Part shown: positions 792-18,778 of the stretch, in pieces | How positions within the stretch are numbered: position 1 is the stretch's first letter | Layout: each line of letters starts with the position of its first letter | NCBI GenBank assembly: GCA_040752835.1 | Contig: JBFMGG010000007.1 | Span: 624,286-688,285 of the forward strand | Length of the DNA: 64,000 bases | Direction of reading: 5' to 3' | Source of the DNA: Campylobacterota bacterium | Lineage (GTDB): Bacteria; Campylobacterota; Campylobacteria; Campylobacterales; Sulfurimonadaceae | Notes under the pieces: model-generated | What the model was told of the DNA's origin: nothing | Database searches by the model: none | The model's input: the letters and a program-made list of their open reading frames with translations, nothing else | Translations under genes and position numbers: made by a program

Positions 792-1364
792 ATGCAATAC
801 CTACATACGCTCGCCGTAATGTCCGCTGCTGTGCTGTTGGCCGGATGCGCTGCAACAAAGCCAACTACCCCGATCGAACAAACGATCCCGATACGCACCG
901 GCGACACCTCGGTAACGATCATCGCCCCGCAGGAGCAGTATCTCCCGGCTCAAGCATTCTCTACGTTCACCGATTACGAATACTTCCTCGACTGCCCGGA
1001 TGAGCGCTGCAAAATCGGGCGCATGCACATGCTCCAGTACATCACGATCTCCCCTGCCGCCGGCAAACATACTCTCTGGGTCAAGCTTGCCCCCGAAGGC
1101 GTGGTCAACACCATCGCTATCACCGGCACCGATCCGCTCTCCGTTGTATTTGAAGCCGTGCCAGATAAGCGCATTTTCATATCCCACGCATTCGAGGCAT
1201 CACTTAGCTCTCTCCTGATCCCTATCGCGGCGCCTACCTCTTCGCTGTCGATCGTTGACGATACCGCTGGTCACGCAAAGGTTCAAAAAGTCCTCGATAC
1301 CACATCGATCTTCGGGGATAAAATGGCGGGATTCGGTGAAAAGGGGATCGTATACGACAAATGA
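792..1364 (+). CDS. Predicted lipoprotein, unknown function
   Basis: A 190-residue protein starting with a signal peptide and lipobox LLAG-C (Cys at residue 19), so it should be lipid-anchored after signal peptidase II cleavage. The mature part is Pro/Thr-rich at first and then probably beta-rich. I do not recognise the family. In-frame ATG codons lie at 789 and 792, and a GTG at 756. I chose 792 because GAGGG at 783-787 then has workable spacing. The next gene starts inside its stop codon (ATGA overlap), so the two are probably co-translated. It is the first gene after the origin-like region. Confidence 0.7.
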   Translation: MQYLHTLAVMSAAVLLAGCAATKPTTPIEQTIPIRTGDTSVTIIAPQEQYLPAQAFSTFTDYEYFLDCPDERCKIGRMHMLQYITISPAAGKHTLWVKLAPEGVVNTIAITGTDPLSVVFEAVPDKRIFISHAFEASLSSLLIPIAAPTSSLSIVDDTAGHAKVQKVLDTTSIFGDKMAGFGEKGIVYDK

Positions 1365-1789
1365 CCCGCATAGCGATCTGTATCCTCATCCTCACTCTAT
1401 CGGCATCAGCATCCGACAAAACCTACGTCGATACGACCGGATGGGAGATCGATGAAAAAGCACCGAGCGATGCAGCACTCCGAGAGTTTGTCGATCATGC
1501 AAAAAAGGCCTGCTTCAAAGGTCACGCCATGAGCTGCCAACTCGTAGGCGAATCGTTCTCCGTCTCCGATCAGCCCAAAGACTACCATGAAGCTCTCAAA
1601 TACTTCTCGCAAGGATGCACCCTAAAACTCCCGATCTCATGCCTGCACGCAGGGTACCTATATGAAAACGGCTACGGAGTCCGCCAAGACATCGCCGAAG
1701 CATGGGAACTCTACGGAAAATCATGCGACTACGGCATGCAAGAGGGATGCGATCAATACGCTCGGATCAATAGGAGATACCAAAAGTAA
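1361..1789 (+). CDS. Secreted Sel1-repeat protein
   Basis: A 142-residue protein with an N-terminal signal peptide ending near ASAS (residues 1-18). At least two Sel1-like repeats follow, recognisable by A-x-x-Y-x-x-G-C and L-x-G-Y-L-Y-E-N-G-Y-G-V patterns and by regularly spaced cysteines. This resembles the cysteine-rich Hcp-type proteins of Helicobacter and relatives. Sel1 repeats are alpha-helical scaffolds for protein-protein contacts, and this one should act in the periplasm or outside the cell. It overlaps the upstream lipoprotein gene by 4 bp, so the pair may function together at the envelope. The specific role is unknown. Confidence 0.75.
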   Translation: MTRIAICILILTLSASASDKTYVDTTGWEIDEKAPSDAALREFVDHAKKACFKGHAMSCQLVGESFSVSDQPKDYHEALKYFSQGCTLKLPISCLHAGYLYENGYGVRQDIAEAWELYGKSCDYGMQEGCDQYARINRRYQK

Positions 1790-1869
1790 CTCCTACTTTC
1801 TTCTCTTCCATCGAATCCATAAAAATTCTGTAGTGCATATCATACACCTCCAGACACGTAGATCATAGA

Positions 1870-1970
1870 TATAATCAGTTAAATCGCTCTATAACGCTAT
1901 AATTCTTTTTATCGAAAATGATATTTTTATTTATATTGCTGAAAATATCGCTATGCTTATCGCTAAATGG
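1870..1970 (+). promoter_or_regulatory. AT-rich promoter region with short repeats
   Basis: The gap upstream of the HTH-like gene has TATAAT at 1870-1875 and 1898-1903, and repeated CGCT/ATCGCT words (near 1884, 1895, 1949 and 1960). It could be a promoter with operator half-sites for the downstream regulator. No convincing -35 is visible. Confidence 0.35.
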
Positions 1971-3513: not shown

Positions 3514-3671
3514 AACAGCAAACCGACCTGAAAACACTGGCAGCATACGCAAAACGTCACGGCTACACCGTAGAGATCAAACACGATCATATCGTAGCGG
3601 CAAACAACAACGGAGTGATCCGAACCGGATCGTTGGCGACATTGAAAAAAGTTGCGGGGGGTGTGAAGTGA
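3510..3671 (+). CDS. Very small protein upstream of parA
   Basis: 53 residues. The ATGA overlap at 3510 links it to the preceding gene, and a GTGA overlap at 3668 to parA. The sequence (MKQQTDLKTLAAYAKRHGYT, then a beta-like VEIKHDHIVAANNNGVIRTG) resembles a small alpha/beta fold without a known name. The overlaps on both sides and the normal codon use argue that it is a real gene. Co-translation with parA suggests a partition-related or regulatory role, which is inference. Confidence 0.55.
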   Translation: MKQQTDLKTLAAYAKRHGYTVEIKHDHIVAANNNGVIRTGSLATLKKVAGGVK

Positions 3672-4318
3672 AAACCATCACCATCGCCCACTCCAAAGGC
3701 GGAGTATCCAAATCCACCCTTGCATGGAATCTCGCCATCGCATTGCAGATGAGCGGGTTGCGCGTAGCCCTTGCCGACATCGACGGCCAACAGCTCACGA
3801 TCAGCAAAACAGCTCAGGCGCGTATCGCTTCGGGGTACGCTCCGATCCATGTTTATACCGCTGTTACCATCGAGGAACTCACCGCGATCACGCAGAGCAC
3901 CGATCATGACATCACCATCATCGATGCGGGAGGGTATGACTACGACCTCGGACGGGTTGCGATCAGCATCGCCGATCGCGTCGTTGTACCAATCTCCGAA
4001 GATCCCACGGAGCTGCTCGGATTCGCATCGTTTCTCGGTGCATTGCGCGACGTATCCGAATACGCCCCTATCCCTCCGGTGATGATCGTGATTACCCGCG
4101 CTCATGCTCGGTCGAAATCGTTTATCGGGATCCGACAGGTAGCATCACTTTGGCCATCAGCGATTATCGCCGATACGGTTATGAGACGGCGCGCGGTGTA
4201 CTCCGCATCGATGGGGCACGGATTCGGAGTGACCGAACTCTCCGAACGACATCCGGATGCAGCAGATGAGATGTATCGACTCGCACGGGAGATTGTGGGT
4301 GGGGAGGTGGAGAGATGA
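3668..4318 (+). CDS. parA: ParA-type partition ATPase
   Basis: 216 residues. The deviant Walker A motif HSKGGVSKST (residues 8-17) carries both the signature and the catalytic lysine. DIDGQQ follows at ~37-42, and DITIIDAGGYD forms the Walker B region. This is the short ParA/MinD-superfamily form without an N-terminal HTH. It would bind ATP, coat the nucleoid and move ParB-bound DNA. The GTG start is supported by the GTGA overlap. Unusually, three genes separate it from parB at 5767, although all are linked by 4-bp overlaps. Its presence points to plasmid or phage-plasmid ancestry. Confidence 0.88.
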   Translation: MKTITIAHSKGGVSKSTLAWNLAIALQMSGLRVALADIDGQQLTISKTAQARIASGYAPIHVYTAVTIEELTAITQSTDHDITIIDAGGYDYDLGRVAISIADRVVVPISEDPTELLGFASFLGALRDVSEYAPIPPVMIVITRAHARSKSFIGIRQVASLWPSAIIADTVMRRRAVYSASMGHGFGVTELSERHPDAADEMYRLAREIVGGEVER

Positions 4319-5408: not shown

Positions 5409-5770
5409 ACCTAAATCTAAACAACGCAAACAAAAAAATGCTATCAACGCTTAACTATCTAAAAATGGATATTCAATCTCTCAATGACATCGAGGATCTC
5501 AGCGAAAACGATCGCGAATCGATTACCCGAATTTTAGAGAACGTCGATTCCATTATCGATACGGCAACAGAGCAAAGAGTATTCACTAAAAGAGAGGTCG
5601 TAGAGATCCTCGTGGCGAATAATAACAAGGTATTGAAATTGGTAGATCCTGATAAATATTTTGTCATTGAAGAGGAAAATGTACTCTGCAAACGTAAAAG
5701 TTTATTTACACGGGACAAAGTTATCAACGAATATACCTTTGATTACGTGATAGAGGAGGCGATGTCATGA
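5405..5770 (+). CDS. Hypothetical helical protein
   Basis: 121 residues. The N-terminal half is predicted alpha-helical and Asn/Leu/Ser-rich, possibly a short coiled coil. The C-terminal half is alpha/beta and charged. Family not recognised. It is coupled to both neighbours by ATGA overlaps and sits immediately before parB. Confidence 0.55.
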   Translation: MNLNLNNANKKMLSTLNYLKMDIQSLNDIEDLSENDRESITRILENVDSIIDTATEQRVFTKREVVEILVANNNKVLKLVDPDKYFVIEEENVLCKRKSLFTRDKVINEYTFDYVIEEAMS

Positions 5771-6621
5771 AAAAACCACCCATCAACCCCGACCTCCTCG
5801 CTTCCATAGCATCAGGAGCGGCACTGAAAACATCCGGTACTCAGTCCGGATCTTCTGATATCTCTTTAGATATCATTGATCCCAACCCGCATCAGCCCCG
5901 CATGGATTACGATCCTGAAAAGCTCAGAGCACTGGCCGACTCTATCGAACAGCATGGGCTGCTCCAGCCTATTGCTCTGCGACGAAACGGTGATCGATAC
6001 ACCATCATCGCCGGTCATACCCGCTTTGAGGCGCACAAGCTCCTCGGACGCGATACGATCCGCGCCAACATCATCGAAGCCTCCGACGATGATCTCGCCA
6101 TCCTTGCCATGATCGAGAACGTACAGCGTACCGATCTTCACCCTATCGAGATCCAGATCGCTATATCGCGCGAACCGTTCACATCGATGAGTGACGAAGA
6201 GATCGCGCAGATCCTCGGATACTCCAACGTAACAAAGGTGCGGAATATCCGCTCCATCAGCCGACTCATTCCGGAGGTACGTGAGCACCTGATCGCCAAC
6301 CGCCCAAAGATCGGAGTGGATCTCCTCGTCGAACTCCAAAAGTACCCTGAGCGGTTCCAGCTCGAAGTGTACCATGAGGTATTACGTGGGGAGAAAAACC
6401 GCTCCGATCTGCGTTCTACACTTTCGCAGTGGAATAAAATACAGCGGGATAAAGAGGCGCGGGAGCAATCCCAAAAACCGATCATGCCATTCAAGCGCGA
6501 CGATGAGGGCTACCATATCGAATGCGGTAAACTGCCCAAAAAAACCGTTAATGCTTTTGAGAAAGACCTCCTTGATCTTATGGTGCGTCACGGTATCCGT
6601 CCCGCTAAAAACCCACCCTAA
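5767..6621 (+). CDS. parB: ParB/Spo0J-type partition protein
   Basis: 284 residues. The ParB N-domain starts around residue 33 (LDIIDPNPHQPR), with the nucleotide-binding box GHTRFEAH at 83-90 and ENVQRTDLHPIE at 117-128. A helix-turn-helix follows (MSDEEIAQILGYS-N at 141-154). It should bind a centromere and work with the ParA encoded at 3668. The first arginine-box position is GHTR rather than the common GERR. Candidate targets are the 16-bp palindromes at 493-508 and 7051-7066 or the iterons at 2-122. Confidence 0.88.
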   Translation: MKKPPINPDLLASIASGAALKTSGTQSGSSDISLDIIDPNPHQPRMDYDPEKLRALADSIEQHGLLQPIALRRNGDRYTIIAGHTRFEAHKLLGRDTIRANIIEASDDDLAILAMIENVQRTDLHPIEIQIAISREPFTSMSDEEIAQILGYSNVTKVRNIRSISRLIPEVREHLIANRPKIGVDLLVELQKYPERFQLEVYHEVLRGEKNRSDLRSTLSQWNKIQRDKEAREQSQKPIMPFKRDDEGYHIECGKLPKKTVNAFEKDLLDLMVRHGIRPAKNPP

Positions 6622-8311: not shown

Positions 8312-8659
8312 TTATATGTCTAACAATTCAACACTTTGCCCTACAAGCTCATGAGAACAATCATGCAAAAATTCTACTTTGCCATCATTTACAAATGAAT
8401 GGCATCTATGTATGGTTCGATCCTCCCCCCATGGAAACTCGGTTAGTATGCTTGGTTTAAGAGTCGGTTTTTCTGTATCTCCATTCCATGACCAATTATT
8501 CGTGTTTTGTCGTGATCCTGATAATTGAACAGGGATATACCGATCTTGTAACGCCTTAAATTCCAATGGAAATTTTAATCGCACATGGGTTGCATCATGG
8601 ACTTCGCATTGAATAAACCCGATATCATTGGGATTTTTTTTAAGAGGTATTGCCTTCAT
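8312..8659 (-). CDS. DUF6527 family protein
   Basis: 115 residues. The C-terminal half shows the family pattern: W-S-W-N-G-D, then P-T-L-K-P-S-I-L, then C-H-S-F-V-N-D-G-K-V-E-F-L-H-D-C-S-H. His/Cys positions could bind a metal. Such proteins are common in phage structural regions, but their role is unknown. It overlaps the portal gene upstream by 4 bp, so it belongs to the same phage transcript. Confidence 0.7.
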   Translation of the reverse strand: MKAIPLKKNPNDIGFIQCEVHDATHVRLKFPLEFKALQDRYIPVQLSGSRQNTNNWSWNGDTEKPTLKPSILTEFPWGEDRTIHRCHSFVNDGKVEFLHDCSHELVGQSVELLDI

Positions 8660-10491
8660 GCTACGACCTCCCCCTGCACCGCCTGCCCCATCTCATCCCC
8701 TTGCTCCACAGCATTCCCATACTGCCCTAGGATGTTCTGAGTCTTAGCTGCGTTGATCATCGCTTTGGACTCCAGCTCTTTGATCTTCGCTTGCATCTGC
8801 TGCATCTGTAGCTGTACCGTCTGCTCTTGCATCTGCGCCTGAGGGCTATCCCCCATCCCTTCCAGATGCTTCGCCACCAGCTCCCGCATCTTCTCGGCAC
8901 TCGGAGCATCCACATCGGCGAGCAGCTCAGGGAGAAACTCCAGCCCGATACGCCCAGTCGGATCGAGAGCACGCACCTCTTTCATCAGCTCGACGTTTTG
9001 TTTGTACCGCTCGGCGATTGCACCCTGATTGCGCGGAACCATCGTGAGCGTGATATCATAGCGCCCCGTTTGGAGGATGTTCTTGCGCTTCATCGACCCA
9101 TCGCTATTTCGCACCGCCGCCGTATACTCGTCCCGCTCGATCTCGTTGATCGTCACGAGCCGGTCTTTCTCGTTCGGCTCCACGATCCGCAGCACCTGTT
9201 CCGCATCGAAAAAATCCTGAGCGATAGAGATCGCCATCTTGTAAAAATCTTTCTCCCCGTCCATCGACGCATCGAGATACTGAGCCAACCCGATCATCCC
9301 GACGTTTTGACGCTGCTCGATCGCATAGCCGCTGAGACGGTTGACCGCCGCACCCATCGCCTCATCATTCAGCCCGGCGATCTCTTTGGCACGACGGCGC
9401 GCATCGACGATCTGCTGCATCAGATACTGGATCTCCGCACCGTGTTTGATCTCTTTGATCTTGCCCCCGCTGATCGCTCCGGGGCGTACACCCACGACCG
9501 CGTCATCTTTGCTGTACTCATCCGCAAACGCATCGGGATCATCCACCGCATCAGATTCATAGAGGATCTTGACCGAACCGAGGAGATTCGCGATACGGAG
9601 CAGTTTAAAATTGATACTGTCTTGGATCGGCTTGATGTCATGGAACAGCCCGCGAAGTACCCCGTCTTTGTAGTAGAGCCGTCGCACGACAAACGGGATC
9701 CGCTTGAAACTGTACGGACTGTCCCCGTGACTGAGGATCGTATCGCCGCTCCAAATGTACCATCGGATCTTCATCTCCCGCTTCTCTTTGTCCCACTCAC
9801 GCACCCATGAGACGGTGACAAGCACCCGATCGCGTCCGGGATCTTTCATCCCCGCTTTTTGACGGTACTCGTTGAGATTCCACGCATTCGTGTAGTTGTA
9901 ATTCGCGGTGAGCCGATCGACTAATGCCGCATCAAAATACTGATACAGATCCTCCCGATCCATCCAGCGCGGACGGTGAAAATACCGTGCATCGCTATAA
10001 TCGGGTGCTTTGGCATACGGATCGGTGAACGACTCTTCAAACGGTACATGATAGCCGAGGATCTCTTTCTCGGCTCTCCCCTCCAAATCTCTACCTTCGA
10101 GGACGTTGAGAGTGATCTCCATCACCCCCTGCCCCGTGATCATCAGGTCCTCATCACACAGCTTTTTGTGCGAATCGTATTCGGTACTGTCAGGGATACT
10201 CAGACAGATATCGGTGAGGAGGCGGGCGATGTCCGCATCGTTGCGCTGACGGCCTCCCACTTTGAGCTGTTTGCGCGCCGTCGCCTTGTATCCGAGGATC
10301 TTATTCCCGATCTCTTTGTAGGTGTTCTCCCACTGGATCGGCTGAGATCGCGATTGCAGTACCGCGAGCACATCGGGTGGGAGCTGATCCCCCTCATAGT
10401 ATCGGCGATGCTCTGCGGCTTCGCGTCGGGCTTGGATTGATAGCTCATAGCTCTCTTGGAGCATCAGCCGTAATTCGTGGGGTGTTTTCAT
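8656..10491 (-). CDS. Phage portal protein (podovirus P22-like type)
   Basis: 611 residues, the usual length for podovirus-type portals. The order is typical: a helical N-terminus with an RREAAEHRRYYEGDQLP segment, a long alpha/beta core, and a C-terminal Gln/Met-rich coiled coil (TVQLQMQQMQAKIKELES). The portal forms the dodecameric ring through which DNA enters and leaves the capsid. It is unrelated to the Mu-type portal at 18775-20160, so it comes from a different phage. No terminase, capsid or tail gene of that phage remains in the window, so it is an orphan remnant. Confidence 0.8.
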   Translation of the reverse strand: MKTPHELRLMLQESYELSIQARREAAEHRRYYEGDQLPPDVLAVLQSRSQPIQWENTYKEIGNKILGYKATARKQLKVGGRQRNDADIARLLTDICLSIPDSTEYDSHKKLCDEDLMITGQGVMEITLNVLEGRDLEGRAEKEILGYHVPFEESFTDPYAKAPDYSDARYFHRPRWMDREDLYQYFDAALVDRLTANYNYTNAWNLNEYRQKAGMKDPGRDRVLVTVSWVREWDKEKREMKIRWYIWSGDTILSHGDSPYSFKRIPFVVRRLYYKDGVLRGLFHDIKPIQDSINFKLLRIANLLGSVKILYESDAVDDPDAFADEYSKDDAVVGVRPGAISGGKIKEIKHGAEIQYLMQQIVDARRRAKEIAGLNDEAMGAAVNRLSGYAIEQRQNVGMIGLAQYLDASMDGEKDFYKMAISIAQDFFDAEQVLRIVEPNEKDRLVTINEIERDEYTAAVRNSDGSMKRKNILQTGRYDITLTMVPRNQGAIAERYKQNVELMKEVRALDPTGRIGLEFLPELLADVDAPSAEKMRELVAKHLEGMGDSPQAQMQEQTVQLQMQQMQAKIKELESKAMINAAKTQNILGQYGNAVEQGDEMGQAVQGEVVA

Positions 10492-11492: not shown

Positions 11493-11856
11493 GATCCAAA
11501 AAGAGCGCGAATCCCTAAAATAGGGAGTTTTAAGCGCGAATCACTGATGTTTCATTATCAAAACCACTCGCTCATTCTGCACTATTGCGCTTTTTTGCGA
11601 AAACTGCCGTCTATTTAACGAAAAAACCGCCGAAACGATACACGGTATTCCAATGACTAAAACTCGACGGTATAGGCGTTTATGGCCTGAATAACGCCAT
11701 GAAAATTTACGCGAAAGCGCGATGCCGCACCCGACCTCATCACGTGTGGTCGAAAGTGTGGTAAAAGTGCGACTTAGGGACACGACAAAGGGACACTTAG
11801 GGACACAGACAAAGGGACAAAATAAAAGGACAAACTTTTATTTTAAAATCAAAAAT
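11493..11856. other. Non-coding left-end region of the prophage
   Basis: No gene is seen in this 364-bp stretch. AGCGCGAATC is directly repeated at 11504-11513 and 11533-11542 around the hairpin CCCTAAAATAGGG (11513-11525). A weak inverted end-type site (TTTCATTATCAAAA) lies near 11550. Four AGGGACA words follow at 11776, 11789, 11799 and 11813, and a palindromic ATTTTAAAAT near 11839. This is the density expected of a transposable-phage left end with transposase, repressor or enhancer sites. Confidence 0.5.
11776..11820 (+). repeat. Four AGGGACA repeats
   Basis: AGGGACA starts at 11776, 11789, 11799 and 11813 (spacing 13, 10 and 14 bp), with a degenerate fifth copy near 11827. Three copies extend to AGGGACAC. 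Located inside the left end of the prophage, it could be a protein-binding cluster. Confidence 0.6.
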
Positions 11857-12573
11857 CTATTTTGTGCCGTTTGTTTCATCTGCTTTCCATTCTCCATCTT
11901 TAAAAGAGAGTTTGTATGCTGATGCAACTGCCATTATTTGACCTACGGCTCCAATAATCGTCGATTGGGCGTTATTCGATTTTTCTTCCGCTTCTACTAC
12001 TAATGATGGCTTTTGAGTATCTATGAATTCTTGTACGGTTTCACAATACCCTTTTTTAATATAGTAACCAAGAGATAAATCTTGAATAGCCTTTTCCAAT
12101 TTATCAGTATTTTCCTCATTGTTAAGCTCGATTGGTTTTAGCTGATCTTTACTTGATAGATCAAGCTGAACAACATTGGCGGCATCAATACATTTTGACG
12201 CAGAGCTTGAAGCCAAATATACATCACCGTTCGTCAAATGGCGTCCCAAATCCTGGATAATAGAATCAACATATCCGGTTTCTCTGTTTACCGCGTTGAG
12301 ATAAGTTTTTAATGCATTACGATCAGCTTCAAATTGCTGGGCTGGATTCACTTCTGCTTCTGTGGTTATTTCAGCAGATGAAGCAGTATTTTGATTAGGC
12401 TCAAATATCGCTACACCAATCAGCATAGCAAAAAACCAAACAGCGAATCCAGCTATAATCCCTGCCCCATGGGATACGTATTTATTATGACCCTTTTCAA
12501 TATAGTTTTTTGAAAGCTTTTTCCATGCAAAAAAAGCTCCTACTAACCCAAGAATGAAAAACAATGCAACCAT
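11857..12573 (-). CDS. Two-helix membrane protein, prophage accessory gene
   Basis: 238 residues with two N-terminal transmembrane helices (about 2-16 and 34-57). A ~170-residue soluble domain rich in Asn/Glu/Ala follows, ending in KDGEWKADE. AAGGGG before the ATG supports the start. Family not recognised. Its position between the left end and the repressor, transcribed with the repressor, is where transposable phages often carry lysogenic cargo, so expression in the lysogen is plausible. A superinfection or defence role is speculative. Confidence 0.6.
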   Translation of the reverse strand: MVALFFILGLVGAFFAWKKLSKNYIEKGHNKYVSHGAGIIAGFAVWFFAMLIGVAIFEPNQNTASSAEITTEAEVNPAQQFEADRNALKTYLNAVNRETGYVDSIIQDLGRHLTNGDVYLASSSASKCIDAANVVQLDLSSKDQLKPIELNNEENTDKLEKAIQDLSLGYYIKKGYCETVQEFIDTQKPSLVVEAEEKSNNAQSTIIGAVGQIMAVASAYKLSFKDGEWKADETNGTK

Positions 12574-12600
12574 CTGAAACCCCTTTACTTTAAATTTAAA

Positions 12601-12912
12601 TCAAAACGGCCTGATCTTCGCCCGGACGATCCCGATGATCGTGACGTGTTCCAGGTCTTTTCCTTTTAGCTCGATCTCGTCGTATTCGTTGTTGTCGCTG
12701 AGGAATTTTACCCATCGGTTGAGGGGGTCTTTTTTGATCCTCTTTATATAAATATCGCCGTTGATGTTTGCGATGACCGTCTCACCGTTGCGGGCGTCGT
12801 CGGTCCGTTCCAGGATAACCGTTTCGCCATTACTGACGAACGGCTCCATCGAATTTCCGAATACGGCGCTGATCGCCGAAACGGTTCTGGTCGTGATCAT
12901 CGGGACGAACAA
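12601..12912 (-). pseudogene. S24/LexA-type phage repressor, N-terminally truncated
   Basis: The frame encodes the peptidase-like half of a C-type repressor: FGNSMEPF with the catalytic serine (residue 21 of this frame) and YIKRIK with the catalytic lysine (residue 57), ending in GIVRAKIRPF. The usual N-terminal HTH is absent, and upstream the frame runs into unrelated sequence that codes on the opposite strand. The true homologous part ends near 12870-12890. Without an HTH it is unlikely to repress. This is one side of a deletion joint. Confidence 0.75.
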
Positions 12913-13057
12913 CGTCTATACGACGAATGCGAACCGTGATCTGGAAAAACAGGCAGACACCAAAGAGGCCAAGGCCAAATACTGGGAAGGACGCTATCGG
13001 GACCTGACCGAAAGTGGGACGTGCCTGGAGCGTGATCCCGCGATGGAAACAACATGA
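12870..13057 (+). pseudogene. 3' remnant of a small membrane-anchored early gene
   Basis: The plus-strand frame gives a hydrophobic stretch (ETVLVVIIG), then NNVYTTNANRDLEKQADTKE and a charged helical tail ending at 13057. This looks like the C-terminal ~55 residues of a small phage protein with one membrane helix. Its 5' part is missing because the antisense repressor fragment occupies the space. The open frame back to 12761 reads through antisense repressor sequence and is not a credible N-terminus. Confidence 0.55.
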
Positions 13058-13070
13058 CAAAGGAGGAAAT

Positions 13071-13259
13071 GTGAAGCCGATCAATATGAAATCAGAACCC
13101 ATAAAGGAGGACAGCTGGGTATATGTGGGGCTGTTCAAAGGACGTGTGGTAAGGGTGCGGGAATTTCAGGGGGAGACGTGGTACGACGTCGAAATATCCG
13201 GAGTGATCAACCCATACAGGAGGTGCGAATTAGAAATCTGCGAATTCGAACCGGAGTGA
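13071..13259 (+). CDS. Small prophage early protein
   Basis: 62 residues starting at GTG 13071 behind a strong AAGGAGG site; an in-frame ATG at 13014 lacks such a signal. The core (SWVYVGLFKGRVVRVREF, then WYDVEISGVINPYRR) predicts a small beta-barrel. Family unknown. It is part of the early operon leading to gam. Confidence 0.55.
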   Translation: MKPINMKSEPIKEDSWVYVGLFKGRVVRVREFQGETWYDVEISGVINPYRRCELEICEFEPE

Positions 13260-13398
13260 GTGTTTCTCAAGATCGCCGACGGGCGGTCTGATGGAGGACT
13301 CCAATAACTTTTAGGTGGTTCCGATGGGACTTAGAATCAAGAAAAAAGCGCGTGTCGCGGTAGCTACGCGGTACGGCTTTGTATATTGGGAGAAATGC

Positions 13399-13905
13399 AT
13401 GGCAAAACGAAGCAAACCTCAAACCGAAATCCAGAAAATCACGTCGCTTTCAGACGCGGACAGCGTACTGCACCAGATCGCCGACCTCAAAGCAAATGTC
13501 CGGAAAGCCCAGGCCGATGCCGATATCGAGGTCAATGCGGTCAAGGAGAAGCTTGCCGATCAGGTCCGTCCGATGCTGGAGCAGATCGAATCGCTCGAAA
13601 AATCGCTCAACGTCTACAGCGAGTACAACCGCTCCGAGCTCTTCGGAGACAAGAAGACGATCGAGCTTCAGTTCGGACTATTCGGGTATCGCCAAAGCAC
13701 GAGCGTATCGGTGAAGAAAACGACGCTCGAGCTGCTGCAGAAACATGGATTCGATGAAGCGATATCGATCAAACCGACGGTCAACAAAGAGATCATGCGA
13801 AGCTGGAGCGCTGAACGTCTCGCACTGGTCGATGCGACGTTGGTGGTCGAGGACAAATTCTGGATCGAGACGAAAGAGAACGATCTCGAAGGGAGTGCGG
13901 CATGA
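13399..13905 (+). CDS. gam: Mu Gam-like host-nuclease inhibitor
   Basis: 168 residues, close to Mu Gam (174). The N-terminal helical region (residues ~12-70) forms the dimerising coiled coil. The following YRQSTSVSVKK and SIKPTVNKEIM segments fit the DNA-end-binding, Ku-like core. Gam binds double-strand ends and blocks exonuclease. I chose ATG 13399 because GGGAGAA lies just upstream. An in-frame extension to 13324 (MGLRIKKKARVAVATRYGF) is possible and may be a separate short gene fused in frame. Confidence 0.85.
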   Translation: MAKRSKPQTEIQKITSLSDADSVLHQIADLKANVRKAQADADIEVNAVKEKLADQVRPMLEQIESLEKSLNVYSEYNRSELFGDKKTIELQFGLFGYRQSTSVSVKKTTLELLQKHGFDEAISIKPTVNKEIMRSWSAERLALVDATLVVEDKFWIETKENDLEGSAA

Positions 13906-14153
13906 GTGCCGTACCAGCCTATGCGCCGATCATCCGGCGGGTAAAAGATGGCGGCATCGAGTTCAATGGACAACGCTATACCCATGAATCACTGGATCGA
14001 TACAGCGGAAGTGATGTGTTCTGCGATATGGAGGTGGATGTCGATACAGAAAAGAGCTGCTATCGCATTTATGATGCATGGGAAAACGAAATCTGCGTGA
14101 TCGAGCTGGATCATGTCGAAACTATCGGGGAGGCGTCCAATGGCAAAGGATGA
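13902..14153 (+). CDS. Small protein resembling the MuA C-terminal beta-barrel
   Basis: 83 residues coupled to gam by ATGA. The pattern VKDGGIEFNGQRYTHESLDR, then YSGSDVFCDMEVDVD and ENEICVIELD, resembles the Mu-transposase C-terminal barrel domain (I-x-F-x-G-x-x-Y, then L-x-x-Y-x-G-x-x-V, then x-x-x-I-C). It stands alone, without a catalytic core. It could be a decayed or independent accessory domain. The resemblance is by eye only. Confidence 0.45.
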   Translation: MSAVPAYAPIIRRVKDGGIEFNGQRYTHESLDRYSGSDVFCDMEVDVDTEKSCYRIYDAWENEICVIELDHVETIGEASNGKG

Positions 14154-14808
14154 GAAAATCTGGATACCAGACAACTATTACAACGGGTTCCTCAAGGGAT
14201 GCATGCCCAACGAAGCGATCGAGACGACCCCGTCGAAAACCGCACTCGAAAATGCCGGTTGTGAGATCAGCGCGCTGTGCTATCTGATCCTTCCAAACGG
14301 TGACCAGCATAATCCTCGCTTCATGAAACCGAACGAGTTTCCGTCATCGATCCGGGCGTTGTTCGAGATTGCTCCTGATGAGGGTGACCCGGATGAAGAA
14401 CCAGCTCCTGTAGATACGGTCGGGCAAGAGATCAAAGACATGCTCCATGAGGCGACGTACCAGGTCTGTGATACGTGCGGCGAAAACAAGCCGATGGAGG
14501 CGTTCAAGAAAAAACCGGGTCGCGGAGTGCTGCGGAAAAGCACCTGCATCGAATGCGAAGCGAAGGCCAAAGAGCAGATGCCTCAGTTCAAAAAGGACGC
14601 CCCCCCTGCTCCGGAGCCTGATACAGTTCCAAAATCGGAAGCAGTAGAGGGTACCGTGGTGGTACCTTCACGACCGCCAGTTACGGTAACACTCGATTAT
14701 CTGAAACGAATCGCAACCGAAGCGTTCGAGCGCGGTCGGGAGTACGAGCGTAACAACGTCGAAACGGTAGAGCTGTCGCTCGATGAGCTGCTGGGGATCG
14801 GGGCATGA
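14140..14808 (+). CDS. Early protein with zinc-ribbon segment
   Basis: 222 residues. The start is at ATG 14140 behind GGGGAGG, overlapping the previous gene by 14 bp. The central region has CDTCGENKPMEAFKKKPG followed by C-I-E-C, a CxxC...CxxC zinc ribbon of the kind that precedes phage HNH/endonuclease VII-type domains. No nuclease core follows. The flanks are Pro/Glu-rich linkers and a C-terminal helix (ATEAFERGREYERN). It is probably a DNA- or protein-binding accessory. Confidence 0.6.
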   Translation: MAKDEKIWIPDNYYNGFLKGCMPNEAIETTPSKTALENAGCEISALCYLILPNGDQHNPRFMKPNEFPSSIRALFEIAPDEGDPDEEPAPVDTVGQEIKDMLHEATYQVCDTCGENKPMEAFKKKPGRGVLRKSTCIECEAKAKEQMPQFKKDAPPAPEPDTVPKSEAVEGTVVVPSRPPVTVTLDYLKRIATEAFERGREYERNNVETVELSLDELLGIGA

Positions 14809-14966
14809 GTACCTTTGAACGTATCGACGCGATCGTGCGTCAGAAACGGCATGAGGGCAGATGCATGATGAGGCTGGAGCGGGTGAAGTCGGACGAGAAC
14901 ATCCGGAAACTTCGCGAAGCAAGAGCGATCATTGAAGAGAAGATGAAAGGAGTGCTCGCGCTATGA
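14805..14966 (+). CDS. Small coiled-coil protein
   Basis: 53 residues, highly charged and fully helical (KSDENIRKLREARAIIEEKM), starting at an ATGA overlap with the upstream gene. No recognised family. Tight packing in the early operon supports it being real. Confidence 0.5.
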   Translation: MSTFERIDAIVRQKRHEGRCMMRLERVKSDENIRKLREARAIIEEKMKGVLAL

Positions 14967-15010
14967 AAATTACAGAACCAACACTGCGCGTGAGACATAA
15001 GGAGAAAAAC

Positions 15011-15214
15011 ATGGGATTTGACCCAAGAACCGTATCTGCCGGAGCGATTCGAATGTTCGGAGCAAAGCAAAGTCATCCGAACCTAAAAGAGCATAACGGC
15101 CAAGAGGTACTCGTCGATGCCACCCGCGATGAAAACGGACGAACCGTGATCGTCGTCATGACACAGTACTGTGGGAAACCGGAACGGCTGATCTGTGCGA
15201 TGAGCCAAAGATGA
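15011..15214 (+). CDS. Small prophage early protein
   Basis: 67 residues starting at ATG 15011 after AAGGAG. An in-frame ATG at 14963 overlapping the previous stop would add 16 residues. The C-terminal half (GQEVLVDATRDENGRTVIVV) is beta-rich. Function unknown. Confidence 0.5.
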   Translation: MGFDPRTVSAGAIRMFGAKQSHPNLKEHNGQEVLVDATRDENGRTVIVVMTQYCGKPERLICAMSQR

Positions 15215-15289
15215 CGTGGATTTAACAGCCTCCAGTGAGCTGGGGGCGATTGAATCAACTTACATTTTATTTTCAAAAAGGTGATTACT

Positions 15290-16192
15290 ATGAATCCGTT
15301 CAGAGGCAAAGGGCTCAAACCCGAACACTTCAACCATGACGTCCGCTACATCATCGACAACTTTCTGGTCGAGCAGGCGATCACAATCTACTTTGCGCCT
15401 CCAAAACACGGAAAGAGCCGGTTCAGTCTCGGTCTCACAAAGTACTTGCATGATAACACCGACAAGATCGTCCAGTATTTCGACTTCGACAACCCACTCT
15501 CTGCCCTGAAAGAGCGCGGGGCATCGGACGTGATCGAGCAACTGATCGATCGGCTCGATTACGTTCACCCGGAGACGGTGGCCATGATGTCGCACGAAGC
15601 GCTCAAACTGCTCGCAGACGGTGCGGTAGGCAATGCTTATCGCGATTACGTCATGATCTTCGACTCGATCACCGACTTTGTGCGCGACGTTCAGAACGAG
15701 GCGATGGCCAAAGGTTTCATGAACGTCATGAAGCGGCTGCGTAACGCCGGAGCGACGATCATACTACTGCATCACACCAATAAGAACGAGAAGAACTATC
15801 AGGGGTCAGGGGTGTTCAAGAGCGCAGCAGACAATATCTACTTCATGCGCTCCGGAAACGGTACTGAACAGCACGATATCTTTTTGCTCGACGTTGAAGC
15901 TGGACGGTTCCATGTGGATAACACAGCGTTCCGCCTGGACAAGATCAGCTACGACCTTCAGATCGTCGCCTACGATCAGGCGGTGATCCGACCGGAAGAG
16001 CAGAGTTTCATCGATGCGATCAAGGAAGTGCTCAAGAAGAACCCGGACGGGATCGGGCAAAGCCAGCTGCTCTCCGAGATCGGCAAAGCCAAGGACGATA
16101 AGCTCGCCCGCAATAACCTCGCCAAATATACGGGGCGGTTTTGGGAGATCAAAGATGGGAAAGGTAAACTAAAGCTCTACTTTCTCCTATAA
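15290..16192 (+). CDS. RepA-like AAA (RecA-fold) ATPase / replicative helicase
   Basis: 300 residues. The Walker A variant APPKHGKSRFS is at ~34-44, the Walker B-like YVMIFDSITDF at ~120-130, and TIILLHHTNKNEKNYQGSGV carries the conserved His/Asn sensor. This is the AAA_25/RepA hexameric helicase fold seen in plasmids and phages. A C-terminal winged-helix-like region follows (PDGIGQSQLLSEIGKAK). The start at 15290 has AAGGTGA upstream. Its place in a Mu-like early region, where Mu itself has MuB and no such gene, is notable. It could support replication from the repeat array directly downstream. Confidence 0.75.
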   Translation: MNPFRGKGLKPEHFNHDVRYIIDNFLVEQAITIYFAPPKHGKSRFSLGLTKYLHDNTDKIVQYFDFDNPLSALKERGASDVIEQLIDRLDYVHPETVAMMSHEALKLLADGAVGNAYRDYVMIFDSITDFVRDVQNEAMAKGFMNVMKRLRNAGATIILLHHTNKNEKNYQGSGVFKSAADNIYFMRSGNGTEQHDIFLLDVEAGRFHVDNTAFRLDKISYDLQIVAYDQAVIRPEEQSFIDAIKEVLKKNPDGIGQSQLLSEIGKAKDDKLARNNLAKYTGRFWEIKDGKGKLKLYFLL

Positions 16193-16195
16193 CCT

Positions 16196-16295
16196 ACCAC
16201 ACGCACCACACGACCACTTACCACTTAAAAAGCCCATGAATGCGAACTTTATGAGATGTATGTGTGTGGTCGAGTGGTTAAGTGGTTTATGTGGT
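16196..16295. repeat. Symmetric ACCAC / GTGGT arrays
   Basis: ACCAC occurs at 16196, 16205, 16213 and 16220, and GTGGT at 16266, 16274, 16282 and 16291, about one copy per 7-9 bp on each side of a 41-bp centre. The two halves are inverted relative to each other. This could be an iteron origin, an operator, or a large imperfect hairpin. It lies in the only sizeable gap between the helicase gene and the gp16 gene. Confidence 0.65.
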
Positions 16296-16320
16296 ACATA
16301 CCTGAAAAAAGGACCATACC

Positions 16321-16725
16321 ATGACCAAAAAACAACGAGAAGCACACGCTTCGCTCGTCAAACAGGTGCATACGTCGATCCGATACCAGAACTACTACCG
16401 CGACAACCGGGAAGAGTACGTGAGGATGATCGAGGATGCGTTCGGCAAAAAATCATCGCGCGACCTGAGCGTGTCGGACCTGATCGCCCTGGTCGATTAT
16501 CTGAATATGCGCAGGGACTGGCTCCCGACGTTCAAGCCCAGACAGGCGACGCCCGCGCAGGTATGGAAGATCATGCAAACGTGGGACGCCAAAGCGCGGG
16601 ACAAAAGCGATACGGCGCTGCTGAATTTTTGCAGGCGGATCATCAAAAAAGAGTACGAATCTCCGGATCAGATGACGTTTAACGAAGCTCAGAAGGTGAT
16701 TTTGGCGCTGGAGAACATGAAGTGA
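16321..16725 (+). CDS. Mu gp16-like protein (DUF1018)
   Basis: 134 residues. The family features are present: a helical N-terminus, SVSDLIALVDYL, then RQATPAQVWKIMQ and a C-terminal helix (NEAQKVILALENM). The gene lies just before mor, as in Mu-like phages. The molecular role of gp16 is unknown. Confidence 0.8.
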   Translation: MTKKQREAHASLVKQVHTSIRYQNYYRDNREEYVRMIEDAFGKKSSRDLSVSDLIALVDYLNMRRDWLPTFKPRQATPAQVWKIMQTWDAKARDKSDTALLNFCRRIIKKEYESPDQMTFNEAQKVILALENMK

Positions 16726-16733
16726 GAGTCGCG

Positions 16734-16798
16734 CCCCCTGCGAGAGAGAGACGCATAATTCGACCTAAGCAACCGAATTATACATCATCGCAGAGGGG
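16734..16798. promoter_or_regulatory. Nested inverted repeats upstream of mor
   Basis: Inner arms ATAATTCG (16755-16762) and CGAATTAT (16774-16781) are a perfect pair. Outer arms CCCCCTGCGA (16734-16743) and TCGCAGAGGGG (16788-16798) are near-perfect. The whole could act as a terminator for the early operon or as a dyad operator controlling mor. Confidence 0.6.
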
Positions 16799-16804
16799 TT
16801 TGCA

Positions 16805-17071
16805 ATGGCTGTTACCAATTTTGATATTTTTACCGAGTTCTGCCGACGCATTCGCGAAGACGGAGCCACCAACGAAGAGCTGATGCAAGAGTACGGCGGG
16901 ATGCCGATATATGTCCCGTCGTGGCAGCTCAACGGACGCAACGACGTCATCATCCACGACTACACCGAAAAAGGACTCTCGCCCAAAGAGCTGGCGATGA
17001 AGTACTCCCTCAGCCTGAGCCGGATCTACGAGATCATCGGCGACGTGCGCAACCCCTCCCTATTCTCCTAA
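16805..17071 (+). CDS. mor: Mor-family middle/late transcription activator
   Basis: 88 residues, shorter than Mu Mor (129) but with both hallmarks. The dimerisation strand region is EELMQEYGGMPIYVPS (residues ~24-39), and the helix-turn-helix is GLSPKELAMKYSLSLSRIYE (~59-78). It activates phage middle or late promoters with host RNA polymerase. It converges on the head operon, overlapping gpG by 12 bp at the 3' ends. Its likely target here is the divergent late promoter region at 25569-25724. Confidence 0.8.
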   Translation: MAVTNFDIFTEFCRRIREDGATNEELMQEYGGMPIYVPSWQLNGRNDVIIHDYTEKGLSPKELAMKYSLSLSRIYEIIGDVRNPSLFS

Positions 17072-17524
17072 AAACTCCATAATAATCTCCAGCACTTCCT
17101 CCCTCGCCCCATCAATCAACTCGCCATCATGCGTGATCGGAAAGAACGGTCGCGCCTTCAATCTTCCATCTTCGGTTCCAAACTGATGTGCGATCGGGTA
17201 CGGGTACCCCTTTGCACTGTAGGCGTTTACTCCCACGATAACGCTCGCATCGGTAGCATCGTGCGTGATGCTCTCCCGCAGATTCCGGTCTTTTGACTGG
17301 AGGATTTTATGGCCTCCGTATTTGGCCTTATATGCCCGTGTGGACTCGGCCAGCGGATGCCATGCGTCGCCCTCTGGAGATCGCTCGTTATCGAAACTCT
17401 CCTCGGTGATGTTGGTCAGATATATCCCTATCCGTTCCATCGGCTGGGACATATCGCCGATCTTTCGGTGCAGCTGCTCGATCGCACCGAGGACGTCGGC
17501 GCTCTGAATCTCGATTTGTATCAT
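17060..17524 (-). CDS. Phage virion morphogenesis protein (Mu gpG-like)
   Basis: 154 residues. The family pattern is present: FDNERSPEGDAWHPLAEST, then LQSKDRNLRESITHDA, then AHQFGTE and RPFFPIT, matching pfam Phage_tail_S/gpG-type assembly proteins. Mu gpG acts in head-tail joining or tail completion. ATG 17524 has GGAG six bases upstream; the annotated frame extends to 17596 without support. It is the last gene of the minus-strand head operon. Confidence 0.8.
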   Translation of the reverse strand: MIQIEIQSADVLGAIEQLHRKIGDMSQPMERIGIYLTNITEESFDNERSPEGDAWHPLAESTRAYKAKYGGHKILQSKDRNLRESITHDATDASVIVGVNAYSAKGYPYPIAHQFGTEDGRLKARPFFPITHDGELIDGAREEVLEIIMEFLGE

Positions 17525-17614
17525 CATTCGCTCCGTTTTATGGTATGATTTTGGAAAGAAGGGATTGGCCGACATAATAAGGTGAGCAGGCTCCACCCCG
17601 GTAAAAAGAAGGCT

Positions 17615-18778
17615 TCACTCCTGCCCCTTCTTGTAAATCAGTTTTTCGATCCGCTTTTTCTCAACTCCCCCCGAACTATCGATCACATGGGCACTGACCC
17701 CCTGAGTTTTATCCGGCAGATACTCGAACAGCACGATGATCGCACGCTTAGACCCCCCGTCCCCCTTGAAATACCGCAGCATTTTTTTAACGAGGCGCTT
17801 GGCCTTGTCGTCGAATTCGAGATAGATTTCGTCCGGATCGGATACGGTAGCGGCGATTTCGTCGATATAGTAATGCCGATCTCGTTTGGTCAGCTTGCTG
17901 TGACCGCTTCCGGCGGTGAAGAGGCTGTCATCGACGACCATCGGGTCGCCCACCCTGTCCACGTAGGTATCACCGGCTTTAACCCCCAGCGCTCCGTAGA
18001 ACCGTTTTTTGAGCTGCTCTTCGCTGAGACCGGCGAATTCTTTGCGCCGGGCATCGGAGAGTTTCGGAAGCGACGACAGGCTTGCGTTCAGATCGATCTT
18101 CGAGAGTTTGGAGACGCGATTCCCGGCTCCGGGATTGTAGGACCAGTCCGGGGTCGCGATGTTGTCGCCCGGAGGTTCGGAGACTTTCCAGCCCCGACGC
18201 TCGATCTGGGCGCGGCTCCAGGCCCGTGCCTGGCATTGACACCCCCATGCGTTCGGCGGGTAGTTGGTCTGCCACCACGGATCGGTACGGGGCAATACGG
18301 TGCCGTTTTTGGCCAGATGGTTCATGCGCGGGTGTTCCGACAGTCCTCCGACGTACTGCAGATATTCCAGACCGCTGCGCGTCTGCTGCTCATAACGGGC
18401 GGTAGCATGGGCGACACGGGTATTGGTTTTGAAGATCGTTCGGAGCCGGTTGCCGTCGATGATCGTCTCCTTGACCTCTCCGGTTTTCGGATTGACGATC
18501 TCCTGACGTCCCCACCACCCTTTTTTCTCCAGTGTCGGGATGATCTGCTTCTTCCAGTCCTCAAAGCGGGTCCCGTTCGCCATCGCTTCGGTGATCGATG
18601 AGTGGATGTCGCTGAGCAGATCGAGACGGGTGACTTTGGCCACTGTGAAGGCTTTGTGGTGCGCGTCATGCATCATCTCGTTATAATCGAACGAGAGCTT
18701 GTACCCTTTGGAACGGAGGTACTCGATCGCTTCGCGCGGTTTCAGGCCGAATGCGAACGATGGTTTGGGGAGGCTCAT
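17615..18778 (-). CDS. Head morphogenesis protein (Mu gpF / MuF) fused to a PBECR-type nuclease domain
   Basis: 387 residues. Residues ~1-230 are a MuF minor head protein: RVAHATARYEQQT, then YVGGLSEHPRMNHLAKNGTV, then W-W-Q-T-N-Y-P-P-N-A-W-G-C-Q-C. Residues ~255-387 are an extra domain with KRDRHYYIDEIAATVSDPDE and a beta-rich end, resembling the phage barnase-EndoU-colicin-RelE (PBECR2) fold. MuF proteins enter the virion, so the tail domain could be an ejected or scaffold-associated RNase. The gene overlaps the portal gene by ATGA. Confidence 0.75.
   Translation of the reverse strand: MSLPKPSFAFGLKPREAIEYLRSKGYKLSFDYNEMMHDAHHKAFTVAKVTRLDLLSDIHSSITEAMANGTRFEDWKKQIIPTLEKKGWWGRQEIVNPKTGEVKETIIDGNRLRTIFKTNTRVAHATARYEQQTRSGLEYLQYVGGLSEHPRMNHLAKNGTVLPRTDPWWQTNYPPNAWGCQCQARAWSRAQIERRGWKVSEPPGDNIATPDWSYNPGAGNRVSKLSKIDLNASLSSLPKLSDARRKEFAGLSEEQLKKRFYGALGVKAGDTYVDRVGDPMVVDDSLFTAGSGHSKLTKRDRHYYIDEIAATVSDPDEIYLEFDDKAKRLVKKMLRYFKGDGGSKRAIIVLFEYLPDKTQGVSAHVIDSSGGVEKKRIEKLIYKKGQE

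Follow-up and report, generated by a model that had tools for sequence, protein, structure and literature searches.

Mirror-image short repeats adjoining an AAA_25 ATPase gene in a Mu-like prophage: putative cognate iterons and a possible replication origin

In a Mu-like prophage of a Campylobacterota bacterium, two mirror-image sets of short repeats, four copies of ACCAC and four of GTGGT flanking a 41-bp center, start 3 nt after the stop codon of a gene for a RecA/RepA-type ATPase and precede gemA, and they appear to be the docking site, and probably a replication origin, for the product of that same gene. Binding is strongly inferred, from covariation of the repeat with part of the ATPase, whereas an origin role is a matter of inference from layout and analogy. 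Such a module is unexpected in a group of phages thought to replicate only by transposition. The initial annotation had described the paired arrays, with 7–9 bp spacing, between a RepA-like helicase gene and gp16, and that observation is borne out in full. Its interpretation, that the symmetry suits an origin or operator and that an origin would be a departure from the transposition-only replication of Mu, is supported only in part. An origin-type layout beside a RecA/RepA-type ATPase is well supported, but a departure from transposition-only replication is not shown, since relatives with the array keep full MuA and MuB where their upstream DNA could be inspected, and the module would then be an addition.

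The window, i.e. the whole 64,000-nucleotide stretch analyzed (contig JBFMGG010000007.1 of assembly GCA_040752835.1, positions 624,286 to 688,285), has the features listed in Table 1, together with those of other loci for which coordinates are pertinent (L with a number denotes a locus or contig used for comparison). The pentamer itself is not clearly over-represented in the window, with 86 occurrences against 76.5 expected and 20 of 100 shuffles reaching 86, but when all 5-mers are counted, eight copies in 100 bp is exceeded in the window only by AAAAA, with nine. With composition-corrected scoring, none of 1954 other 150-bp segments in the first 30 kb of the window, the part scored in this way, scores as high, and in the genome itself a 9-bp-step version of the pattern occurs only here. 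The spacers between repeats do not pair across the arms (TT/ACG/ACGC against CGA/TAA/TTAT) and the hairpin is weak (z −1.97, with 7 of 200 shuffles folding as well), so the array looks like a set of protein sites rather than a stem.

Table 1. Coordinates of the array, of neighboring genes and of pertinent features of other loci
Sequence	Coordinates	Strand	Feature	Remarks
Window	16196..16224	+	Left arm, four ACCAC iterons	At 16196, 16205, 16213, 16220 (steps 9, 8, 7); 3–4 copies in relatives at 83–85%
Window	16225..16265	.	41-bp center with AAAAAGCCC	AT 0.66 against 0.49 in the first 30 kb of the window
Window	16266..16295	-	Right arm, four inverted iterons GTGGT	At 16266, 16274, 16282, 16291 (steps 8, 8, 9); 4–5 copies in relatives at 83–85%
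Window	15281..16192	+	RecA/RepA-type ATPase (AAA_25 PF13481; phrog_6357)	Relatives suggest the start is ATG 15290 (300 aa)
Window	15395..15418	+	Walker A, APPKHGKS	Residues 36–43 of the 300-aa form; from alignment
Window	15992..16189	+	Predicted C-terminal winged helix	Residues 235–300; AlphaFold2 model
Window	16100..16126	+	Predicted recognition helix	Residues 271–279; its sequence tracks the iteron sequence
Window	16321..16725	+	GemA (Mu gp16) homolog	
Window	16805..17071	+	Mor activator homolog	
Window	13315..13905	+	Mu Gam homolog	
Window	12601..12912	-	C-terminal remnant (103 aa) of an S24-type repressor	Intact, 228 aa, in L006
Window	12874..13079	.	Deletion junction	About 5.4 kb present in L006 (repressor N-terminus, MuA, MuB) is missing
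Window	3668-4318		ParA-like gene	
Window	5767-6621		ParB-like gene	
Window	8656-10491	-	P22-like portal protein gene	
L061	8964-11512		Insertion of about 2.5 kb splitting the ATPase gene	Array remains after the 3′ half
L148	1303-1917		204-aa ORF, exonuclease-like by eye, between ATPase and array (also in L140)	Left arm of the array inside its 3′ end
L150	3900-4118	-	Two arrays of different repeat type after one ATPase gene	TATACA-like, then TACAAC
L239 (pATHE01)	1737-1900		Six exact 9-bp ATTCACTCT repeats with inverted copies	Inside the Prim-Pol-AAA_25-HTH gene
L240 (also L241–L243)	1008-1068		TGTCCCA/TGGGACA array	After an AAA_25-HTH gene
L246	3955-4140		AAGTGAG repeats	Just downstream of a ‘helicase RepA family protein’ gene
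L231	1184-1236		TGTAACA array	Directly after a terminase-like gene
L232	3918-3970		TGTAACA array	Directly after a terminase-like gene

Homologs of Gam, GemA, Mor and the Mu-type portal mark the prophage as Mu-like, but the stretch that L006, one of its nearest relatives, has between its repressor and the Gam region is missing, and MuA and MuB with it. A MuA query gave no match in the genome itself, whereas the same query finds a match, G133, at 67%. This copy is defective, though the reading frames of the ATPase, gemA and mor, and the array, are intact.

The absence of arrays from relatives with the same ATPase had been named beforehand as what would count against the idea, and they are present. 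The six relatives with ATPases 83–85% identical (L002, L004, L005, L006, L007 and L129) keep ACCAC/GTGGT in the same place. At 69% identity (L008, L009) the layout is kept but the repeat is AACACT/AGTGTT, with two copies on the left and five on the right, and farther out it is ACAAC, ACGAC, ACAACAC, TACCA/TACCCA or, by eye, a 9-bp TGCATCACC type, the two arms changing together. In a composition-corrected scan of 31 loci, 19 have the best inverted array of the whole locus starting between 24 nt before and 124 nt after the ATPase stop, in 14 of them 2–9 nt after it (L051 leads only marginally, 2.90 against 2.89, and for L048 it is the second array that scores). L050 is beaten by two far segments, and in L061 the best array follows the 3′ half of the interrupted ATPase gene. 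The other ten lack a two-armed array there. Five of these (L010, L054, L057, L058 and L059) keep only one arm, of two or three direct repeats, inside the end of the ATPase reading frame just after the winged-helix codons, four (L011, L060, L055 and L056) show none, and L062 has a broken ATPase gene and none. Over 24 scored arrays, from which L048 and L051 are absent for want of a score in the narrower stretch used, steps between repeats are exactly 9 bp in 61 of 90 cases, and 23 start 0–24 nt after the stop (L136 being at −5). The center, however, runs from 2 to 47 nt and is not AT-richer than the locus over these arrays (0.621 against 0.620, P 0.46), so that an AT-rich melting center is not supported as a family rule. 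The arrays of L003, L045, L051 and L136 are weak. Relatives with the array carry, in the main, MuA, MuB, Gam or DUF3164, GemA and Mor, where enough flanking sequence could be inspected.

The ATPase matches PF13481 at 29.9 bits, above the cut-off of 27, and no other Pfam family. Its PHROG hits are phrog_6357, listed there as of unknown function, and RecA/DnaB-type helicase families, and by sequence alone it has no PDB relative. The predicted structure (from 10 sequences, mean pLDDT 84.8) has a RecA-type core, for which RadA, RecA, RAD51, KaiC, DnaB and RSF1010 RepA (1g8y, Z 15.8) structures fit about equally well (Z 15.8–17.8). Hexamer formation and helicase activity of this protein are inferred only. 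The C-terminal winged helix is likewise predicted, from an H-H-H-E-E succession at residues 235–299 of the full-length model. Pfam HTH hits are found in the proteins of L137, L142 and L239 but not in that of the window, and the 72-aa domain alone, folded from one sequence (pLDDT 72.9), gave no PDB match at E ≤ 0.001.

What points to the ATPase as the probable reader of the repeats is covariation. Among 31 array-bearing ATPases below 93% identity, repeat similarity correlates with recognition-helix identity given core identity (partial Mantel r 0.46, P 0.0004) and given the rest of the winged helix (0.45, P 0.0002), with nothing left for core or rest. As that set included five loci brought in by a repeat pattern, which favors agreement, and for L150 the farther of its two arrays, the test was repeated on 26 loci, including the window, found by protein only, with AT-rich words excluded. 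It gave 0.42 and 0.45 for 5- and 6-mers (P 0.0006 and 0.0002), whereas the core given the helix adds nothing (P>0.5). The tests used only array-bearing loci, chosen by score and by eye, and left out the ten without a two-armed array, L061 and near-duplicates (93% identity or more), and Mantel tests do not fully remove shared ancestry. In sliding 13-residue windows of the protein those starting at 271 and 268 rank first and second of 96, though the one starting at 232, the start of the winged-helix domain, is nearly as good (0.40–0.41 against 0.44–0.45). Neighboring proteins do not replace the helix: given it, MuA, MuB, Mor and Gam/DUF3164 add nothing and GemA little (0.195, P 0.014), while the helix stays at 0.455–0.577 given each of them (n 18–23). 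Examples at the start of the helix are DKT with ACAAC, DKL with ACCAC, DKQ with AACACT, DNT with ACGAC and DRG with ATCAC.

Apparent natural swaps are also pertinent. L048 has a MuA 95% identical to that of L008 and a GemA 51% identical to the window's, but its ATPase is only 33% identical to the window's and 34% to that of L008. Beside that ATPase lies a TGCATCACC-type array (read by eye, and too degenerate to score), while a window-type ACCAC array is found beside gemA. The latter looks like a left-over of an earlier ATPase, though its close relative L008 itself has the AACACT type. L047 and L061 have ACGAC beside the ATPase and an ACAAC-type array farther downstream, and in L150 a TATACA-type set (by eye) lies beside the ATPase with the TACAAC array after it. 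Against a strict ATPase–array unit, in L140 and L148 a further ORF lies between ATPase and array, and the array sits about 30 nt before gemA.

A scan of a viral collection for TACAAC/GTTGTA arrays, with no reference to any protein, gave 17 contigs, of which 16 have an AAA_25 gene upstream within 600 nt. In 14 this is a relative of the ATPase considered here, on the same strand (at 428–587 nt in L140, L146 and L148), while for L144 the sequence available begins at the array, with gemA next. Some of these contigs are probably DNA already met through the protein (L151 and L124, and L153 and L127, are of equal size). The other two are unrelated phages: in L137 the array starts 7 nt after the gene for a primase (zinc finger)-AAA_25-HTH protein, and in L142 133 nt after that for a DnaB-N-AAA_25-HTH protein. 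A second probe, TGTAACA, gave 10 contigs, four with an AAA_25-HTH gene whose stop overlaps the array (L233, L234, L236 and L237), one (L230) with the array after a P-loop gene without Pfam match, two (L231 and L232) after a terminase-like gene, two (L228 and L229) of low complexity, and one (L235) unclear. An ACCAC 9-bp pattern proved unspecific, as only 4 of 74 contigs have an adjacent AAA_25 gene by a purpose-built profile (L182, L192, L201 and L212, the first, second and fourth being the contigs already known as L007, L005 and L006).

A different type of example is provided by elements that are not Mu-like. L135, a 6.6-kb contig, carries a tyrosine integrase, a primase-like gene (phrog_2135; no Pfam match), a phrog_6357 ATPase 32% identical to the window's, and two arrays. 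The 8.3-kb circular plasmid pATHE01 of Caldicellulosiruptor bescii encodes a Prim-Pol-AAA_25-HTH protein, and its best inverted array, ATTCACTCT six times at 9-bp steps with inverted copies, begins within about 45 nt after the HTH match, inside the gene. It is a candidate origin for that plasmid, for which no mapped origin was seen in the literature consulted. An identity of pATHE01 with pBAS2 was considered and is wrong, as pBAS2 is 3.7 kb and pBAL 8.3 kb (PMC3643907). Bacteroides elements (L240–L243, with one and the same array) have TGTCCCA three times and TGGGACA three times about 15 nt after the HTH match of an AAA_25-HTH gene. L240 also carries an annotated integrase and transposase, and in it a DUF6371 zinc-ribbon gene follows the array. 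Of six further AAA_25 loci, L244 has a clear two-armed array, TGACG three times and CGTCA three times, as its best, L246, an E. coli phage-like plasmid, has only direct repeats, L248 has weak ones, and L245, L247 and L249 have none.

The reading favored here, with moderate confidence, is that the array is the set of cognate iterons of the ATPase encoded just upstream, whose predicted winged helix would read the repeat. In this view the two arms would seat two oligomers of the RecA/RepA-type motor facing each other over the center, where they would open the DNA and load as helicases, the array thereby serving as a replication origin, which in these Mu-like phages would be a second replication or fork-starting route beside MuA/MuB transposition. 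ATPase and array would tend to travel as one exchangeable cassette. The analysis itself establishes the location of the array, its conservation, the covariation, and the occurrence of the same layout in elements that are not Mu-like, while binding itself, cassette exchange, oligomer loading and origin activity, including any ability to drive autonomous replication, are inferred from these. As relatives keep MuA/MuB, it is not evident why they would need an origin. A bolder version, tentative and judged somewhat less likely than not, is that transposable Mu-like phages of Campylobacterota carry a complete second replication module, a self-loading RecA-type initiator helicase that reads its own downstream iteron origin through a winged helix, with helix and iteron following a readable code and exchanged between phages as one cassette, and that the same module, fused or next to primases, runs plasmids, integrative elements and other phages in several phyla as an unnamed replicon class. 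Mu being the textbook phage that copies its genome by transposition, a conserved initiator-plus-origin cassette in many of its relatives would mean a second way to start replication, or an origin reused to help transposition. The covariation gives a direct, quantitative prediction for binding, and the occurrence outside Mu-like phages points to a widespread replicon type, easy to overlook because the arrays are short and their repeat sequence changes from element to element.

Parallels are closest with the rep-ori origins of SaPI/PICI, where the origin is immediately 3′ of the initiator helicase gene, two iteron sets flank a central segment, and the C-terminal domain of SaPI Rep recognizes the origin (PMC6092414, PMC7581432). 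The position of the array and its two oppositely oriented sets are shared, within the exceptions given above. However, SaPI Reps are related to DUF927 or D5/Primase_Cterm-type helicases (PMC7581432; an affiliation taken from that source and not from direct comparison), whereas here an AAA_25 protein with a predicted winged helix is involved, the center is not consistently AT-rich, which weakens the analogy, the host element is a transposable Mu-like phage, and origin activity is only inferred. The SCCmec helicase Cch2 also binds short (5-nt) repeats directly downstream of its own gene, but it is D5-type, there are only three direct iterons, deletion of the inverted repeats there did not affect binding, and the element is not a phage (PMC7581432). 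RSF1010 RepA and GP46 of phage F13 belong to the same RecA-fold superfamily, GP46 being related to RepA/AAA_25 and an ATP-dependent 5′–3′ helicase (PMC8965321). RSF1010 RepA is loaded at an oriV melted by a separate protein, RepC (PMC8965321), while here a predicted DNA-binding domain is fused to the motor. Phage Mu itself is not known to have an AAA_25-wHTH ATPase with a cognate array. No description of such arrays beside an AAA_25-wHTH gene was found in the literature, in a search that reached few subscription papers.

Of the alternatives, the one that survives best, though it is unlikely, is that the ATPase binds the array only to control transcription of gemA-mor or of its own operon. The array lies in the gap before gemA in the window and most Mu-like relatives, it stays beside gemA in L140 and L148, and iteron-binding initiators commonly also autoregulate. 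However, a search limited to the sigma-70 consensus showed no promoter-like match within the array, elsewhere the array stays with the ATPase when gemA is apart or not found (L013, L135, and one arm in L054), and in unrelated elements the downstream gene differs. Less likely still is a recruitment site for a RecA/RadA-like recombination or end-synapsis function during transposition. The about equal fit of the core to RadA, RecA, RAD51, KaiC and DnaB, and the MuA of Mu-like relatives whose upstream DNA could be inspected, would be compatible with this, but the same kind of cassette occurs, fused or next to primase-type genes, in elements where no MuA was seen in the DNA available (L135, L137, L142 and L239). 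That another phage or host protein (GemA, Mor or a host factor) binds the array, which would sit beside the ATPase by linkage, is improbable: the small partial correlation of GemA and the position in L140 and L148 speak for it, but the recognition helix explains the repeat given each of five neighbors, and arrays occur beside AAA_25-HTH genes in elements without a GemA hit. A neutral inverted repeat or RNA hairpin kept by template switching, for which the joint change of the arms and the slightly better fold than shuffles could be cited, can be all but dismissed given the non-pairing spacers, the absence of any Rfam match in 11500–18000 or terminator-like match in the array, and the prevalence of exact 9-bp steps.

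A counterpart of the central strong gyrase site of phage Mu was also considered, but in the contig of L004 the array is not central (about 8.0 of 32.0 kb). Elsewhere in the window, ParA-like and ParB-like genes lie upstream of the prophage, as in plasmid-type elements, and the P22-like portal protein gene next to it is perhaps what remains of a second phage.
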